Part shown: piece after piece, positions 2,887 to 57,769 of the stretch | How the letters are laid out: every line of letters starts with the position of its first letter | Numbering within the stretch: position 1 is the first letter of the stretch | From: Synechococcus sp. Nb3U1 | GTDB taxonomy: Bacteria; Cyanobacteriota; Cyanobacteriia; Thermostichales; Thermostichaceae | Reading direction: 5' to 3' | DNA: 64,000 bases | Assembly: GCF_021533835.1 (NCBI RefSeq) | Contig: NZ_JAKFYQ010000001.1 | Coordinates: 1,832,079 to 1,896,078 of the forward strand | Translations under genes and position numbers: made by a program | The notes under the pieces: generated by a model | Seen by the model: only the letters and a program-made list of their open reading frames with translations | What the model was told of the DNA's origin: nothing | The model's database searches: none

Positions 2887-3621
2887 TTATTCCGGCTGGG
2901 GAATTTCCTCCCAGAGAGTAGTCCGTTGGCGCAGGCTGAGGAAGTGTCCGCCCCCCAGAATTAGGTGATCCAACACAGGAATTTGCAGCAGTTGCCCTGC
3001 TTGTAACAGTTGTCGGGTGAGGGCGAGATCTTCCGGGCTGGGATCCAAGCTGCCGGAGGGGTGGTTGTGGGCAATGAGGATGCGGCTGGCTCCTTGCTTA
3101 ATGGCGCTGCGAAAGGTTTCGCGGGGGTGAGAAAGGGTTTCGGTGGCAGTGCCGCGGGTAACAATCTGCTGGCTGAGCAGCTTGTGTTTGATATCCAGGT
3201 GTAGCACGGCAAAGTGTTCCTGAGCCTCCCACATCAACTCGCCACTCAGAGCCATAGCTGCCTGTTCGGGAGAATCGATCACTGTACGCTCCGGTGGACG
3301 GGCCAAAAACACCCGCCGCCCCAATTCAATCGCCGCCAGGAGGGTGGCTGCCTTGGCCGGGCCGATGCCCTCGATCTGAATCAGTTCCCCCGCCTCCACC
3401 TGTCGTAGTTGGCCGAGGGGATCCCCTTGGTGGCGCTCCAATTCCTTGAGCAGCAACTGTCCTAGCCCCACGGCTGAGAGCTTGCCTGGTCCCTGTCCCG
3501 TGTTCAGCAAAATGGCCAGCAGCTCGGCATTAGAGAGAGTTTTGGCCCCGTAGGTGAGCAGACGTTCGCGGGGACGATCCTGAGCGGGGATATCGCTGAT
3601 GCGTAAAACGTACTGGCTCAT
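2887..3621 (-). CDS. radC: RadC/JAB-domain DNA repair-like protein
   Basis: A 244-aa RadC family protein. The N-terminal half has the RadC helix-hairpin-helix region ([15 protein letters not shown]). The C-terminal half has the JAB/MPN metalloprotease-like fold with the metal site [14 protein letters not shown] near residue 184. Although named for DNA repair, the biochemical role of the family is unsettled. The start is ATG at 3621, not the upstream ATG at 3660, because this ATG overlaps the stop of the upstream glycosyltransferase as ATGA, a sign of translational coupling. It is the last gene of a three-gene minus-strand operon (CIA30 protein, glycosyltransferase, radC). Confidence 0.93.
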
Positions 3622-52462: not shown

Positions 52463-53881
52463 ATGGTTGTGGTTGCACAACGGCTGGATGAAAAAGGGAT
52501 CCCCCAGGTGGATCATCGGGCCGTGGTTGGGTTAGCGATCCCTCTAATTCTGAGTGCCAGTATTCAAGCCCTGATGGGGATAACGGATACCTGGTTTATC
52601 GGCCAGATCTCAAGCCAAGCCTTGGCGGGGATGAATGCGGCCTGGCTGCCCACTCTTGTTGCCCTTGGGCCTTTCATCAATCTGGGACGGGCGGTACAAA
52701 CCCTGGTGGCCCAAACCTATGCGGCTGGGGATCCAAAGGGGGCCTCTGGCCATGCTTGGTCGGGGGTGGGGGTAGGGTTGGCCTTATTCCCGTTGTGTGG
52801 GCTGCTTTCAATGTTAGGGAGCCTTCTCTACGCGGGGTTGCCTCTGCCGGAGGGTGTCTCTGAACAAGCCAGTGCCTATTGGCAGATCCGAGTTTGGGGG
52901 GGATCCGCCCTGTTGGGAACCTTTTCCCTGTCGGGATTTTTTAACGGTATTGGTCGCACCTGGGTCACCCTCTGTGTGAGCGGCTGTAGTGTGTTGTTGA
53001 ATGGGGTGCTGAATGCCCTGTTCATTTTTGGCTTTGGCTGGGGGATTGGTGGGGCCGCTTGGGGCACGATCCTCTCGGAGTATGTGGAGCTAAGCCTGTA
53101 CCTGCTAGTGTTTCTCTCCGGTTGGATTCATCGGGGCTATGCCAGCCGACACAGCTGGCACCTGGGTTGGGCCCCCTTGGCGGCGACGTGGCGCGTTCGT
53201 CCGTTGCTGAAATTGGGTCTGCCGATCTGGATCTACTCTTTGGCGGACATGAGTTCTTTCACCCTATTTCAGTTGATGATCGGACAGGTAGGAGCTGTGG
53301 AGGGGGCAACTGCCCATATTTGTCTGATGTTGTCTCGCTTTGCCTATTTGCCAGCCATTGGCTTAGAGCAATCTGCCACCGTGTTGGTGGGTCAAGCGAT
53401 CGGCTCAGGGCAACTTGCCTGGGCCAAGCGTCTAGGCAATGCGGTGATGGGATGGGCCTTAGGTTATATGGCGGTGATCGGCGGCACACTGGCTCTGCTG
53501 GGCCAACCCTTGATCGGCCTGTTTGTGAGTGAGGTTGATGCCAATGCCGCAAGCATTATCCGCTTGGGCGGACTGCTTTTGAAGATTATTGGCGTTTCTT
53601 TCTTGTTTGATGGCATCAACTTCGCAGCCCTAGGATCCCTGCGGGGGGCGGGGGATGTGCGGGTACCGATGATGATTATGCTCGGAATGAGCTGGCTGGT
53701 GTTCTTACCGCTGTCTCAGATGATGATTTTCCCATCCGGTCAAGGTTGGCTCCCCTTTTTACCAGGATTAGGGTGGGGGGCTGTGGGGGGATGGCTAGCA
53801 ACCCTGATTTATGTGGCTGGGTTGGGATCCCTGATGGTGAGCCGTTGGCGCAGTGGGATATGGCAGAAAACAAGCCTCTAA
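52463..53881 (+). CDS. MATE family efflux transporter
   Basis: A 472-aa membrane protein with about twelve hydrophobic segments and the two-fold MATE layout. It opens with DHRAVVGLAIPLILSASIQA and GITDTWFIGQISSQALAGMN, and the second half has TVLVGQAIGSGQLAWAKRLG. Members extrude cationic drugs or metabolites using sodium or proton gradients; DinF-like members also occur. The substrate is unknown. A palindromic operator in its promoter suggests a ligand-controlled repressor. Two MITE-like fragments lie just after the stop. Confidence 0.92.
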   Translation: MVVVAQRLDEKGIPQVDHRAVVGLAIPLILSASIQALMGITDTWFIGQISSQALAGMNAAWLPTLVALGPFINLGRAVQTLVAQTYAAGDPKGASGHAWSGVGVGLALFPLCGLLSMLGSLLYAGLPLPEGVSEQASAYWQIRVWGGSALLGTFSLSGFFNGIGRTWVTLCVSGCSVLLNGVLNALFIFGFGWGIGGAAWGTILSEYVELSLYLLVFLSGWIHRGYASRHSWHLGWAPLAATWRVRPLLKLGLPIWIYSLADMSSFTLFQLMIGQVGAVEGATAHICLMLSRFAYLPAIGLEQSATVLVGQAIGSGQLAWAKRLGNAVMGWALGYMAVIGGTLALLGQPLIGLFVSEVDANAASIIRLGGLLLKIIGVSFLFDGINFAALGSLRGAGDVRVPMMIMLGMSWLVFLPLSQMMIFPSGQGWLPFLPGLGWGAVGGWLATLIYVAGLGSLMVSRWRSGIWQKTSL

Positions 53882-53893
53882 AACCATAGTCAA

Positions 53894-53960
53894 CTACAGC
53901 TTTTTCCAGTGCTACGTACTACAGCTCATGGGGGCTAATTCCTTGTCTGAAAAAGATTTC
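53894..53960. repeat. MITE-like element, degenerate copy (family M1)
   Basis: CTACAGCTTTTTCCAGTG at its left matches the M1 terminus; the middle (GGGGCTAATTCCTTG) is a diverged version and the right end is lost. It abuts the next fragment. Confidence 0.45.
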
Positions 53961-53963
53961 AGA

Positions 53964-54000
53964 TTACAGCCTTTTCCAGCGTTATCTGATATAGCAGATG
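53964..54000. repeat. MITE-like element, left end only (family M1)
   Basis: TTACAGCCTTTTCCAGCG and TTATCTGATATAGCAGAT match the 61259 copy with one mismatch, then similarity stops. Confidence 0.7.
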
Positions 54001-54059
54001 TCAATTGAGGCAGAATATTGATTGAATCAGGGATCCACTCATCAACACTCGGGGGACTA

Positions 54060-54143
54060 CCCAAAAGTTGAGGGTATTCTTCAGCGCTGCTTCAGCAAAC
54101 TCTTCATCTCTCCACAGTTTTCACTCAACACTTTCTCAGTCTA
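54060..54143 (+). promoter_or_regulatory. upstream element U1 shared with the 56224 gene (copy 1)
   Basis: About 85 bp, beginning CCAAAAGTTGAGG and ending CTTTCTCAGTCT, is alignable with 56075-56158 (AAAAGTTGAGG, CACAG, CTCAA, CTCAG blocks in the same order). The similarity continues more weakly into AAGCAACCTC further downstream. Both copies precede small secreted-protein genes. Confidence 0.6.
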
Positions 54144-54278
54144 GGAGCTTTTACTCAAACCATGAGGAAAGAGAAGCAACCTCAAGCCCTCAAGGTTCCC
54201 TTGCTTCGTCTTGTCGCTGGACAAATCTAGACTGTTCAACATCAAGATGTGGCGTTCTATCCCTTCACAGAGGTTAAT

Positions 54279-54776
54279 GTGAAACGCTCCGTTCTTAATA
54301 TTGTGTCAACCTTTGTCCTGGCTGGCACATCTGTTCTCATTCTTGCGACACACGCTCAAGCTCAGTTTCTAAATCGCAATATCGATCCGCGAGGTCCTTT
54401 TGTGGCTCGTTCCTATGTTTCAGGCGGGTTAGCACGGGATCACATCATCGAGGTTGGCATTGCGGAAGTGGAAGTTACTGGACTAACCATTCAGTGCTTT
54501 AACTTACAGGAGGCTAGAGCTGTTGTTGTTCGGACAGCTATGGGTGAAGTTGTGCCCACAGATGTCACCATCGAGCCGACTAAAATCAGCATCTCGCTGA
54601 AAGAGCCTGCTAAACCGGGTGAACAGCTTGTGGTCAACATTGAAGGTATTAGTTTTGTCCAAGATGGTAATTCCACCTTCTATTTTATTTCTGCAATGAC
54701 TCCTGAAACCGGGGATTCAGCAGTGCCTGTCGGTGCAGCTCGGATTTTATCTCCCGCGAGAGGCCGTTCTACCTAA
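54279..54776 (+). CDS. hypothetical secreted protein
   Basis: A 165-aa protein from GTG 54279 (chosen for the AGAGG upstream; ATG 54249 is in frame). A signal peptide (VLNIVSTFVLAGTSVLILAT, cleavage near HAQAQF) precedes a beta-rich mature domain of about 140 residues with GLTIQCFNLQEARAVVVRTA and TDVTIEPTKISISLKEPAKP. It loosely resembles the DUF2808-type cyanobacterial secreted proteins, but I am not sure. It shares a related upstream region with the 56224 gene. Function unknown, probably periplasmic or surface. Confidence 0.68.
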   Translation: MKRSVLNIVSTFVLAGTSVLILATHAQAQFLNRNIDPRGPFVARSYVSGGLARDHIIEVGIAEVEVTGLTIQCFNLQEARAVVVRTAMGEVVPTDVTIEPTKISISLKEPAKPGEQLVVNIEGISFVQDGNSTFYFISAMTPETGDSAVPVGAARILSPARGRST

Positions 54777-54882
54777 AGCCTAGCCACGCATCCTTTTCTT
54801 TTTGTCAAGCTCTCTTGCCTCAGGTGTTTCTTGCATCTGAGGTTTATTTTGTTGGGTTGCAGGACACAGGTGGTCAGGGAAT

Positions 54883-55890
54883 ATGGATTCGATTAATTCA
54901 CAAATTGCAAGCAAAGCCAAAGCCATGAAAATGATCCTTCAAAAAGGTAAAGCCTGGAATCGGACTATTATCCAACTCTTTTCACGGTTGCTAAAGATGA
55001 GTTTGCCCAGTCTAACCCTTGGTTTGATCGTATTGGCTTTGGTTCAATATGATCAAGGAAAGCAGTCTTACGTTGAGCGTCAAGCTTGGCTACGATTTTC
55101 TCTTGTGCAACTGCGAGAAACTATACTGGAAGAAAAATCTAGCGATGATCAAGTTTTACTCATTCAGGCTTTAATCTTAACTGTTTTAATGGAAGTTCAG
55201 GGACAAGAAAGAGGGACACTCATGGCTTTCTTGTCACGGCTGGAGCTACTACCTCAACTCTCTCTATCTCAAGCAGAATTAGAGCAAGCTCATCTTTCTG
55301 AGTTGGATTTGCAGGGATCCAATTTGCAAGGGGCTAATTTAAGTTGGGCCAATCTCAGTCTTGCCCTCCTGAACCGATCTGACCTTTCTCAAGCCTTATT
55401 AATTGAAACCAATCTGACGGGTGCTGAGCTGCAAAATGCGATTCTCACCTTTGCCTATGCCCAAAAAGCCAACCTGTCGGGTGCATATGTTGGAGGATCT
55501 GATCTAGAAGGGATTGATTTGTCGTTGGCTAATCTATATGGATCTTACTTTCCTGGCTCCAACTTGCGCGGGGCCTATTTGGAATCTGCCAACTTGCAGA
55601 GGAGCATTTTTCAGGGGGCTAATCTGGAAAGAGCACGTTTAAAGGGAGCCGATCTGCGACAGACAGACTTACGGGGAGCCAATTTAATTGGAGCTGACTT
55701 ACGAGATATCCATATAGAAGAAACCTTTTGGAGTGGAGCTATTTATGATCAAACGACTCTCTTCCCAGCAGATTTTAATCCGGAGCAGCTGGGACTGGTG
55801 CTATCCCAGAAAAAGGCTTTGATATGGCAAGAGGGTGAACAGATTGTAGGTAGATTGGGAGGAGCTGTTTCGCTAAAACAAGAACCGTAA
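54883..55890 (+). CDS. pentapeptide-repeat membrane protein
   Basis: A 335-aa protein. A basic N-terminus and one membrane segment (SLPSLTLGLIVLALVQY, about residues 42-58) precede a helical region and then about 30 A(D/N)LxX pentapeptides (LDLQGSNLQGANLSWANLSL; GADLRQTDLRGANLIGADLR), which form a right-handed beta helix. These domains are common in cyanobacteria and usually of unknown role. It lies between the two small secreted-protein genes, 106 bp after the first. Confidence 0.88.
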   Translation: MDSINSQIASKAKAMKMILQKGKAWNRTIIQLFSRLLKMSLPSLTLGLIVLALVQYDQGKQSYVERQAWLRFSLVQLRETILEEKSSDDQVLLIQALILTVLMEVQGQERGTLMAFLSRLELLPQLSLSQAELEQAHLSELDLQGSNLQGANLSWANLSLALLNRSDLSQALLIETNLTGAELQNAILTFAYAQKANLSGAYVGGSDLEGIDLSLANLYGSYFPGSNLRGAYLESANLQRSIFQGANLERARLKGADLRQTDLRGANLIGADLRDIHIEETFWSGAIYDQTTLFPADFNPEQLGLVLSQKKALIWQEGEQIVGRLGGAVSLKQEP

Positions 55891-56223
55891 AGATATAAAC
55901 TCGATTGAAACAATGCTTCACTTTACGATAGTATGAGTATAGTATGAGTGATGAAACTAAGTAATGAAGCGATGAACCATAGCTACTGAAAAGATTCTCA
56001 CCAACAGTCAAGCCTTATTTTCGGCTGCGCATTAGACTTGCAAAATTCCTGGGTGAAATGAGGCTTAATCACTGCCTAAAAGTTGAGGTGTTTTTTCAGT
56101 ATTACCTCAGCTAAATCTTCGCCTGTTCACAGTGTGTTCTCAATTCTTGCTCAGATCTAAAAGTTTTAATGAATGCATCGTGAAAGCAACCTCTGTTCCC
56201 ATTCTTCTTTAGGAGATCCCAGT
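55891..56223. other. 333-bp intergenic with second U1 element
   Basis: The first part has short ATGA-rich direct repeats (AGTATGAGTATAGTATGAGTG near 55929 split in two units). The U1 element follows at 56075-56158, then a leader to the gene at 56224 with AGGAG before its ATG. No other coding frame is supported. Confidence 0.6.
56075..56158 (+). promoter_or_regulatory. upstream element U1 shared with the 54279 gene (copy 2)
   Basis: CCTAAAAGTTGAGG through TTGCTCAGATCT aligns with 54060-54143. Downstream AAGCAACCTCTGTTCCC matches the other leader as well. It may be a common promoter/5' UTR region. Confidence 0.6.
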
Positions 56224-56517
56224 ATGAAACCCCTTCGCCGCATTACACTGACGCTTCTCTCGGTAGCTGTGCTGATGGGTAGTTCTGCTACACTGACTAG
56301 CGCTGCCACTCCCACCGTGCGCGCGCTACAACGGCAAGCCAGTCAAACTCGTGACAATGGTGGCAGCCACTTTGAGCCCGGTGCCCCCTCCTCGCGGCGG
56401 GAATTGCGAGCCAGTTTGCTTGTGGATAGCCCAATTGTGGAAGCCAACTCCTCTATGAGGTCTCGCATTCAGGAGCTGGTGCAGCAAGCCCGTGAGCATG
56501 GCTCGGTGCGCAACTAA
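56224..56517 (+). CDS. small hypothetical secreted protein
   Basis: A 97-aa protein from ATG 56224 with AGGAG upstream. A signal peptide (PLRRITLTLLSVAVLMGSSA, Ala-rich cleavage near TSAAT) leaves about 70 polar residues (RQASQTRDNGGSHFEPGAPS) ending in a charged helix (SSMRSRIQELVQQAREHGSV). I recognise no family. Its upstream region is paralogous to that of the gene at 54279, although the proteins do not look alike. A short hairpin-like CCCCTGCAACAGCGGGGG with a T-rich tail follows 50 nt later and may terminate it. Confidence 0.68.
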   Translation: MKPLRRITLTLLSVAVLMGSSATLTSAATPTVRALQRQASQTRDNGGSHFEPGAPSSRRELRASLLVDSPIVEANSSMRSRIQELVQQAREHGSVRN

Positions 56518-56571
56518 ACTTCTTTGCCCCTGTTGGATGCAGCTTATCTCCTCGCCATGAGTCTCTCTTTC

Positions 56572-56598
56572 CCCTGCAACAGCGGGGGATTTTTCGTG
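56572..56598 (+). terminator. hairpin with T tract after the small secreted-protein gene
   Basis: CCCCTGC ... GCGGGGG with a short AACA loop is followed by ATTTTTCG. It is about 55 nt after the stop at 56517 and reads as a Rho-independent terminator. Confidence 0.65.
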
Positions 56599-56650
56599 CT
56601 TTGTTGAGACCTGTCAATGAATTAAGAAGGGATCCCCCATAATAGGTTCA

Positions 56651-57769
56651 TTGGCTACCCTCGCCGACATGATTGCCGAATCTGCCCTCACCTCTGATGC
56701 CAGCCTTAGTGAAACCCAAGCCGAGAGTCAAGAGGGATCCCCTGCGGCGATTCGCTTGGTGCAGGTCAGCCGTACTTTTTCCGGGATCCGGGCGGTCGAT
56801 GGGGTGGATCTGGCGGTGCGACAGGGGGAGTTTTTTACCCTCTTGGGGCCTTCTGGATCGGGCAAAACCACCTGTTTGCGGATGATCGCGGGCTTTGAGC
56901 GTCCGGATCAGGGCTGGATTGAGCTGAACGGCCAGGATGTCTCGGGTTTACCCCCCCACCAACGGCCCGTAAACACCGTATTTCAGGACTATGCCCTCTT
57001 CCCCCACATGACAGTGGCAGAGAATGTCGGCTATAGCCTGATGATTCGCGGCATCCCTGCTAAGGAACGGCAAAAACGCGTGCAAGAGGCATTGGAGCTG
57101 GTGCAACTGCCCCAGATGGGATCCCGCAAACCCAGTCAACTCTCAGGAGGGCAACGGCAGCGAGTGGCTTTGGCACGCGCTCTGGTCGGCCAACCGCAGG
57201 TGCTCTTGCTGGATGAACCTCTAGGGGCGTTGGATTTGAAGCTGCGCCAGCAAATGCAGTTTGAACTCAAGGCCCTGCAACATCGCCTTGGCCTCACCTT
57301 TTTGTATGTCACCCATGACCAAGAAGAAGCCCTGACCATGAGCGATCGCATCGCCGTCTTCAACCGGGGGCGCCTCGAACAACTGGGATCCCCGGCGGAA
57401 CTCTACGAACGACCGGCCACCCGCTTTGTGGCTAGCTTTATCGGCCAAACCAACCTAATCGAGGGATCCCTGGCAGAACGGTGTGTGGGAGAAGCGGCCT
57501 TGTTTGTTTTGCGACCGGAACATGTTCAAATTGGCCTGCCTGGGGACGGGATCCCGGATGGCCATTGCCACCTGACGGGGCAGATTTGCGATACCGCTTA
57601 TTTGGGGGTTTCCATTCGGTATCAGGTTTGTGTCTCTGGCACTGAGGCAAAACTTTTGTCTCTACAACCCAACCCTGGGATCAACTCGCGGCGGCTCCCG
57701 GAAGGAACAGAGGTGATCTTAAGTTGGCTGCCAGAGCGGATGCACCGCATTGAAGAGGCAGTGAATTGA
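56651..57769 (+). CDS. PotA-like spermidine/putrescine-type ABC ATPase
   Basis: A 372-aa ATPase: Walker A GPSGSGKTTCLRM, Q-loop VFQDYALFPHMTV, signature LSGGQRQRVALA, Walker B LLLDEPLGALDLKL, H-loop YVTHDQEEALTMSD, and a C-terminal TOBE domain (ALFVLRPEHVQIGLPG). It matches PotA, which with PotBCD imports polyamines. Normally it heads a potABCD operon, but no permease or binding-protein gene follows, so it is an orphan. The start may be TTG 56651 or ATG 56669; the Shine-Dalgarno is weak for both. Confidence 0.9.
   Translation: MATLADMIAESALTSDASLSETQAESQEGSPAAIRLVQVSRTFSGIRAVDGVDLAVRQGEFFTLLGPSGSGKTTCLRMIAGFERPDQGWIELNGQDVSGLPPHQRPVNTVFQDYALFPHMTVAENVGYSLMIRGIPAKERQKRVQEALELVQLPQMGSRKPSQLSGGQRQRVALARALVGQPQVLLLDEPLGALDLKLRQQMQFELKALQHRLGLTFLYVTHDQEEALTMSDRIAVFNRGRLEQLGSPAELYERPATRFVASFIGQTNLIEGSLAERCVGEAALFVLRPEHVQIGLPGDGIPDGHCHLTGQICDTAYLGVSIRYQVCVSGTEAKLLSLQPNPGINSRRLPEGTEVILSWLPERMHRIEEAVN

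Follow-up and report, generated by a model that had tools for sequence, protein, structure and literature searches.

What kind of DNA is shared by the upstream regions of two small genes with unrelated products, and how did both genes come to carry it? The question arises in the genome of Synechococcus sp. Nb3U1 (G000; 3.49 Mb, four contigs), within a stretch of 64,000 nucleotides (C1:1832079-1896078), hereafter the window. The original prediction held that two small secreted-protein genes, here called A and B, are preceded by a homologous element (U1), either as a co-regulated pair or through duplication of a promoter or 5' UTR onto different genes. The locus comprises the following features, of which gene A and the pentapeptide-repeat gene recur both in a genome of the same genus (G005) and in one of another genus (G007).

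54056-54163, plus strand: U1A, homology core and putative promoter element of gene A (homology, profile, conservation)
54279-54776, plus strand: gene A, 165 aa, GTG start, signal-peptide-like, distantly DUF2808-like (reading frame, profile comparison)
54817-54843, plus strand: terminator-like hairpin downstream of gene A (hairpin scan)
54883-55890, plus strand: pentapeptide-repeat protein gene, 335 aa, adjoining gene A also in G005 and G007 (Pfam, synteny)
56071-56177, plus strand: U1B, putative promoter element of gene B (homology, profile, conservation)
56224-56517, plus strand: gene B, 97 aa, ATG start, signal-peptide-like, orphan family with a paralogue (gene C) elsewhere (reading frame, family searches)
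56570-56589, plus strand: terminator-like hairpin downstream of gene B (hairpin scan)

The predicted homology holds. Over their 84 bp, 54060-54143 and 56075-56158 can be aligned colinearly with three 1-nt gaps, and their local alignment score of 49 (shuffle mean 15.9, maximum 29) is reached by none of 2000 dinucleotide shuffles, which sets chance resemblance aside. Homology extends a little beyond these stretches, to a core of 54056-54163 and 56071-56177 in which 71 of 107 positions are identical. When the wider intergenic regions are compared, the match, now scoring 59 against a shuffle maximum of 40, extends to a AAGCAACCTC block. This further similarity had also been predicted, and the block is indeed present in both leaders, but by itself it is within chance, 55 of 500 shuffled pairs scoring equally high. 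The genome-wide search that had been proposed, run with U1A, returns two further sites in G000, namely U1B and a minus-strand site at C1:822.6 kb. This third copy (U1C) lies ~1.06 Mb away, upstream of gene C, so that the set of genes sharing the upstream DNA numbers three and not two. Identities are 69/108 between U1A and U1C and 59/107 between U1B and U1C; the order of descent among the three copies is not clear from these pairwise values.

The proteins encoded by A and B are unrelated, as had been stated. BLASTP gives no match, and profile comparison yields a probability of 1.4 that involves signal-peptide-like residues only; a simple duplication of the two genes is thereby rejected. Gene C encodes 94 aa, 61% identical to B. 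The products of B and C display signal-peptide-like N-termini and a conserved C-terminus, SRI(R/Q)xLVQQAR, and gene B matches no known family. Gene A and its relatives, compared as a profile with two proteins that pass the DUF2808 (PF10989) cut-off, reach a probability of 96.8 (E 2.2e-10, 130 columns). Gene A would thus be a distant relative of DUF2808 proteins, although neither it nor its G007 relative has a direct Pfam hit, PF10989 included. Its structure model has a beta-rich core (mean pLDDT 60.8) but is uninformative, with no PDB entry matching it at E <= 0.001. Judging by their N-termini, the products of A, B and C would all be exported. Genes A and B are probably expressed as separate short transcripts, because terminator-like hairpins follow both. 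The pentapeptide-repeat gene does lie between them, as predicted; it adjoins gene A in G007 too, however, and here a terminator-like hairpin separates it from gene A.

Two small reading frames near the copies were set aside. A 69-aa upstream frame across U1A is open in both G000 and G005 with four residues differing, which fits chance more than coding. Directly upstream of gene C, an exported-looking frame of 64 aa, gene D, is found in both genomes (L004 5121-5312 and L027 2766-2957, both minus strand), and its C-terminus LHQLVQEAR recalls B and C. As a relative of that family it has a weak profile probability of 5.6, and no U1 lies upstream of it.

The U1 copies display a regular internal architecture. 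In the window, its elements are located as follows.

54080-54145, plus strand: U1A repeat array, six 11-bp units (TTCAG, TTCAG, CTTCA, CACAG, CTCAA, CTCAG, each followed by 6 nt), period-11 score 23
54150-54155, plus strand: predicted -10 hexamer of gene A, TTTACT, 10 nt after the last CTCAG
54162, plus strand: predicted transcription start of gene A, the A of an invariant CA (alignment columns 106-107)
56095-56160, plus strand: U1B repeat array, six 11-bp units (TTCAG, CTCAG, CTTCG, CACAG, CTCAA, CTCAG, each followed by 6 nt), period-11 score 25
56165-56170, plus strand: predicted -10 hexamer of gene B, TTTAAT
56177, plus strand: predicted transcription start of gene B

All six copies, three in G000 and three in G005, are composed of six in-phase 11-bp units, 4 nt and a TTTAAT-like hexamer, with no insertion in B or C. 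The word of the array is yTCAR (yTCAR-N6), directly repeated at an exact 11-bp step. The units of U1A read TTCAGCGCTGC, TTCAGCAAACT, CTTCATCTCTC, CACAGTTTTCA, CTCAACACTTT and CTCAGTCTAGG, followed by AGCT, TTTACT, CAAACC and A; the third unit of the array is a poor match to the word (CTTC). Period 11 gives the top repeat score among periods 6-19 in six of six copies (six units, 5-mers), and shuffles attain that score at any of these periods in 52 (A), 1 (B) and 32 (C) of 4000 trials. Over the 36 units, which belong to arrays related by descent and are therefore not independent samples, positions 1-5 carry 1.12-1.35 bits and the others 0.05-0.49. Unit positions 1-5 account for 25 of the array's 31 invariant columns; with runs shuffled, this clustering has p 0.006 at period 11, but 0.12 when the best among periods 5-19.5 is taken.

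The final CTCAG is separated by 10 nt from a downstream hexamer (TTTACT, TTTAAT or TTAAAT), which an invariant CA follows after another 6 nt; CTCAG-N10-TNNANT is present at all six copies. The hexamer would be the -10 box, imperfect as TTTACT and TTAAAT are, and the CA occupies the position expected of +1. A consensus scan for a sigma-70 pair (TTGACA-like and TATAAT-like, 16-18 nt apart) finds none inside 54056-54163 or 56071-56177. The exact pattern of three units, N10 and -10 occurs at the three U1 sites of G000 and the three of G005, and nowhere in G001 or G004. With up to two mismatches, hits rise to 14 in G000 and 18 in G005, where the reversed control gives 5 and 4; this excess may reflect further weak sites or an under-estimated background. 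A wider regulon was sought with a 3-unit pattern, which gives five hits in G000: the three known sites and two near the control level, treated as chance. One of these two lies between what appear, from their translations, to be oligopeptide-ABC-type genes, and the other inside a reading frame.

Conservation between G000 and G005 is selective. The U1A region (54056-54172) is 98% identical to its G005 orthologue, against 55% just upstream, and the U1B region (56071-56188) is 92% identical, against 69%. The third codon positions of the three window genes are 79-86% identical. Conservation does not stop at the predicted start of gene A.

54163-54278, plus strand: gene A leader, sharing 97% identity with G005 over its final 106 nt (54173-54278)

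This value exceeds that of the third codon positions of gene A. The leader is thus as conserved as the promoter, a fact that a promoter module leaves unexplained. In the leader of gene C, just past the predicted start (L018), G000 has ~21 nt more than G005.

As for distribution, U1 was sought in 13 genomes with a profile of the six copies, a sequence-only model built from G000 and G005, at most 150 candidates being scored per genome. Three full copies are recovered in each of these two genomes, and the other eleven yield eight weak matches of 12-16 bits (E 0.04-0.87). In G005, A, the pentapeptide gene and B all have orthologues, which keep this order, and C has one as well. Neither U1A nor A nor B has a match in the four remaining genomes of the genus that were searched (G001-G004). 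Among 39 genomes, true relatives of B exist in G000 and G005 only; a weak hit in G037 contains two stops, runs antisense within a 421-aa reading frame and is false. That reading frame resembles cinA. The B-family alignment matches G000 alone among 292 genomes of the phylum, a sample outside which G005 evidently falls. No relatives of B were found in a genome contig collection, and none of gene A among viral contigs. The contig collection holds one relative of gene A, from the MAG Synechococcaceae SM2_3_2 (Synechococcaceae cyanobacterium SM2_3_2), which is probably G007.

In G007, gene A and the pentapeptide gene are adjacent, and the DNA upstream of A holds no U1-like sequence (176-268 of 300 shuffles do as well). 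Because this gene A lacks U1 while the paralogues B and C both carry it, the simplest history is probably that gene A took over U1 from the B/C family. The absence of U1 from a gene A of another genus supports the proposed duplication of a promoter or 5' UTR onto different genes, and A, B and C would form a lineage-specific three-gene regulon in G000 and G005. In G017 (L023 1378-2843), a pentapeptide-repeat-like ORF lies 360 nt beyond a DUF2808-type relative of gene A, which suggests that the association of the two gene types is old.

We favour the reading that U1 is an activator-dependent promoter module, most likely served by an OmpR/PhoB-family regulator, that drives A, B and C and was copied onto A; we assign it a probability of about 0.6. 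The six yTCAR-N6 repeats, lying on one helix face, would be bound head to tail by a single transcription factor, most likely a response regulator of this family. The bound factor would recruit RNA polymerase to the -10-like hexamer, replacing a -35 box, and the module would drive separate short transcripts of three exported proteins. It would have arrived with the B/C family, and in the G000/G005 lineage a copy would have been placed before gene A, which is older and unrelated. The co-regulation put forward in the original prediction is supported by the promoter-like anatomy and the selective conservation, and the three genes are probably switched on together by one regulator.

An OmpR/PhoB-family activator is proposed because 11-bp head-to-tail repeats that end 10 bp before the -10 match the layout of PhoB sites. 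In the portion of PMC1906773 drawn on here, E. coli PhoB boxes consist of 8 bp plus a 3-bp linker and lie 10 bp upstream of the -10, and the cyanobacterial SphR Pho box has the consensus CTTAACCT, with 8 bp plus a 3-bp linker and at least three boxes. According to an excerpt of PMC4832192, known sites of the family take the form of direct repeats, and PhoP of mycobacteria binds arrays of three and four repeats more tightly than arrays of two. Compared with the sites described in these excerpts, U1 shares the head-to-tail direct repeats, a step of 11 bp (family spacing 10-11 bp), an array that ends ~10 bp before the putative -10, and the absence of a -35. It differs in its word, yTCAR and not CTGTCAT-like, and in having six units instead of the two to four described. 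With the Pho box of SphR, as given in the same text, it has in common the 11-bp step, several tandem boxes, the phylum and word positions 1, 2 and 4; in contrast, position 3 is mostly C and not T, and position 5 mostly G.

U1 is not a canonical SphR Pho box. With a matrix built from 18 of the 30 rows of the table in PMC1906773, the best CTTAACCT triplets score 4.7 (A), 7.0 (B) and 4.3 (C), against a window maximum of ~14. These scores are equalled at 56, 22 and 64 of 127942 window positions, respectively, and that of B is out of register. The yTCAR word matches no regulator that the analysis could name, and a literature search found no paper linking direct repeats of 11 bp to cyanobacterial response regulators. 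Were the favoured reading correct, two unannotated small exported proteins would belong to a defined regulon of three genes, for which the class of regulator, the operator word and the start sites are predicted. The locus would also offer a clean natural case in which the promoter of a young, lineage-restricted family was acquired by an unrelated gene. With six units, the array exceeds the sites of two to four repeats in the excerpted literature and could serve the study of cooperative binding.

U1 might still be a promoter module with another reader, the array being bound by a different protein (a repressor or a nucleoid-type protein) or the promoter being read by an ECF-sigma polymerase; we regard this as unlikely, though not negligibly so. 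The array itself displays only a geometry of head-to-tail binding, which leaves room for a protein outside the OmpR/PhoB family, yet its spacing to the -10 is that of PhoB sites as excerpted. A sigma factor of the ECF type is brought to mind by G007, in which a divergent ECF sigma gene stands beside the gene A/pentapeptide pair, and by G000, which encodes four relatives of it. At that very gene A, however, U1 is absent, and linkage to gene C is not conserved: the nearest relative lies ~5 kb from C in G000, whereas the best one in G005 is on a different contig from its gene C. In G007, the ECF sigma gene (L028 2381-3082) is followed by an 85-aa ORF (3066-3323) at the usual place of an anti-sigma gene, with no informative Pfam match.

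The conserved leader of gene A, 97% identical between G000 and G005, is what speaks for U1 acting as RNA, either as a 5' UTR that is structured or bound by a protein, or as an sRNA, common to the three mRNAs. We consider this improbable: the six copies give a consensus fold of -2.2 kcal/mol, several pairs of which are broken in two of them; the leaders fold no better than shuffles (z -1.15 for gene A), and that of gene A has no evident common motif. No Rfam family reaches its gathering score in 53880-56660, where three sub-threshold hits occur, and the leaders of A, B and C have little in common outside U1. More improbable still is that U1 has no present function and is the relic of a duplication that took in a B/C-like gene and the DNA upstream of it, gene A having later overwritten the duplicate. 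Since B and C are paralogues, their upstream similarity is accounted for by common descent, and the match between A and C includes a 12-nt identity in the leader, GAGGAAAGAGAA, equalled by 10 of 500 shuffles. Relics decay, yet the window copies are 92-98% conserved, against 55-69% in the upstream flank, and the positions at which A, B and C differ leave the repeat words untouched.

If the favoured activator-dependent module is read by an OmpR/PhoB-family protein, candidates can be sought among the Trans_reg_C matches, of which G000 has 11, G005 13, G001 8 and G004 8, none of them linked to U1. Three such frames in G000 are long (512, 526 and 668 aa) and combine the winged helix with receiver and Hpt domains; frames above 500 aa number three in G005 and none in G001 or G004. 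One of the three long G000/G005 pairs was aligned and is 85% identical. The co-occurrence of these long regulators with U1 is a correlation only. It is doubtful, though conceivable, that one of the hybrid regulators (receiver, winged helix, Hpt, receiver) present in G000 and G005 and absent from G001 and G004 reads the yTCAR arrays and fires the regulon of three exported proteins, two of them from an orphan B/C family that originated together with the promoter before the latter spread to A. One hybrid response regulator of G000 (C2:822.5-824.1 kb; L140 2055-3590) lies near a contig end, and its frame starts in the apparent end of the first receiver; its G005 relative (L098) is longer, at 636 aa.
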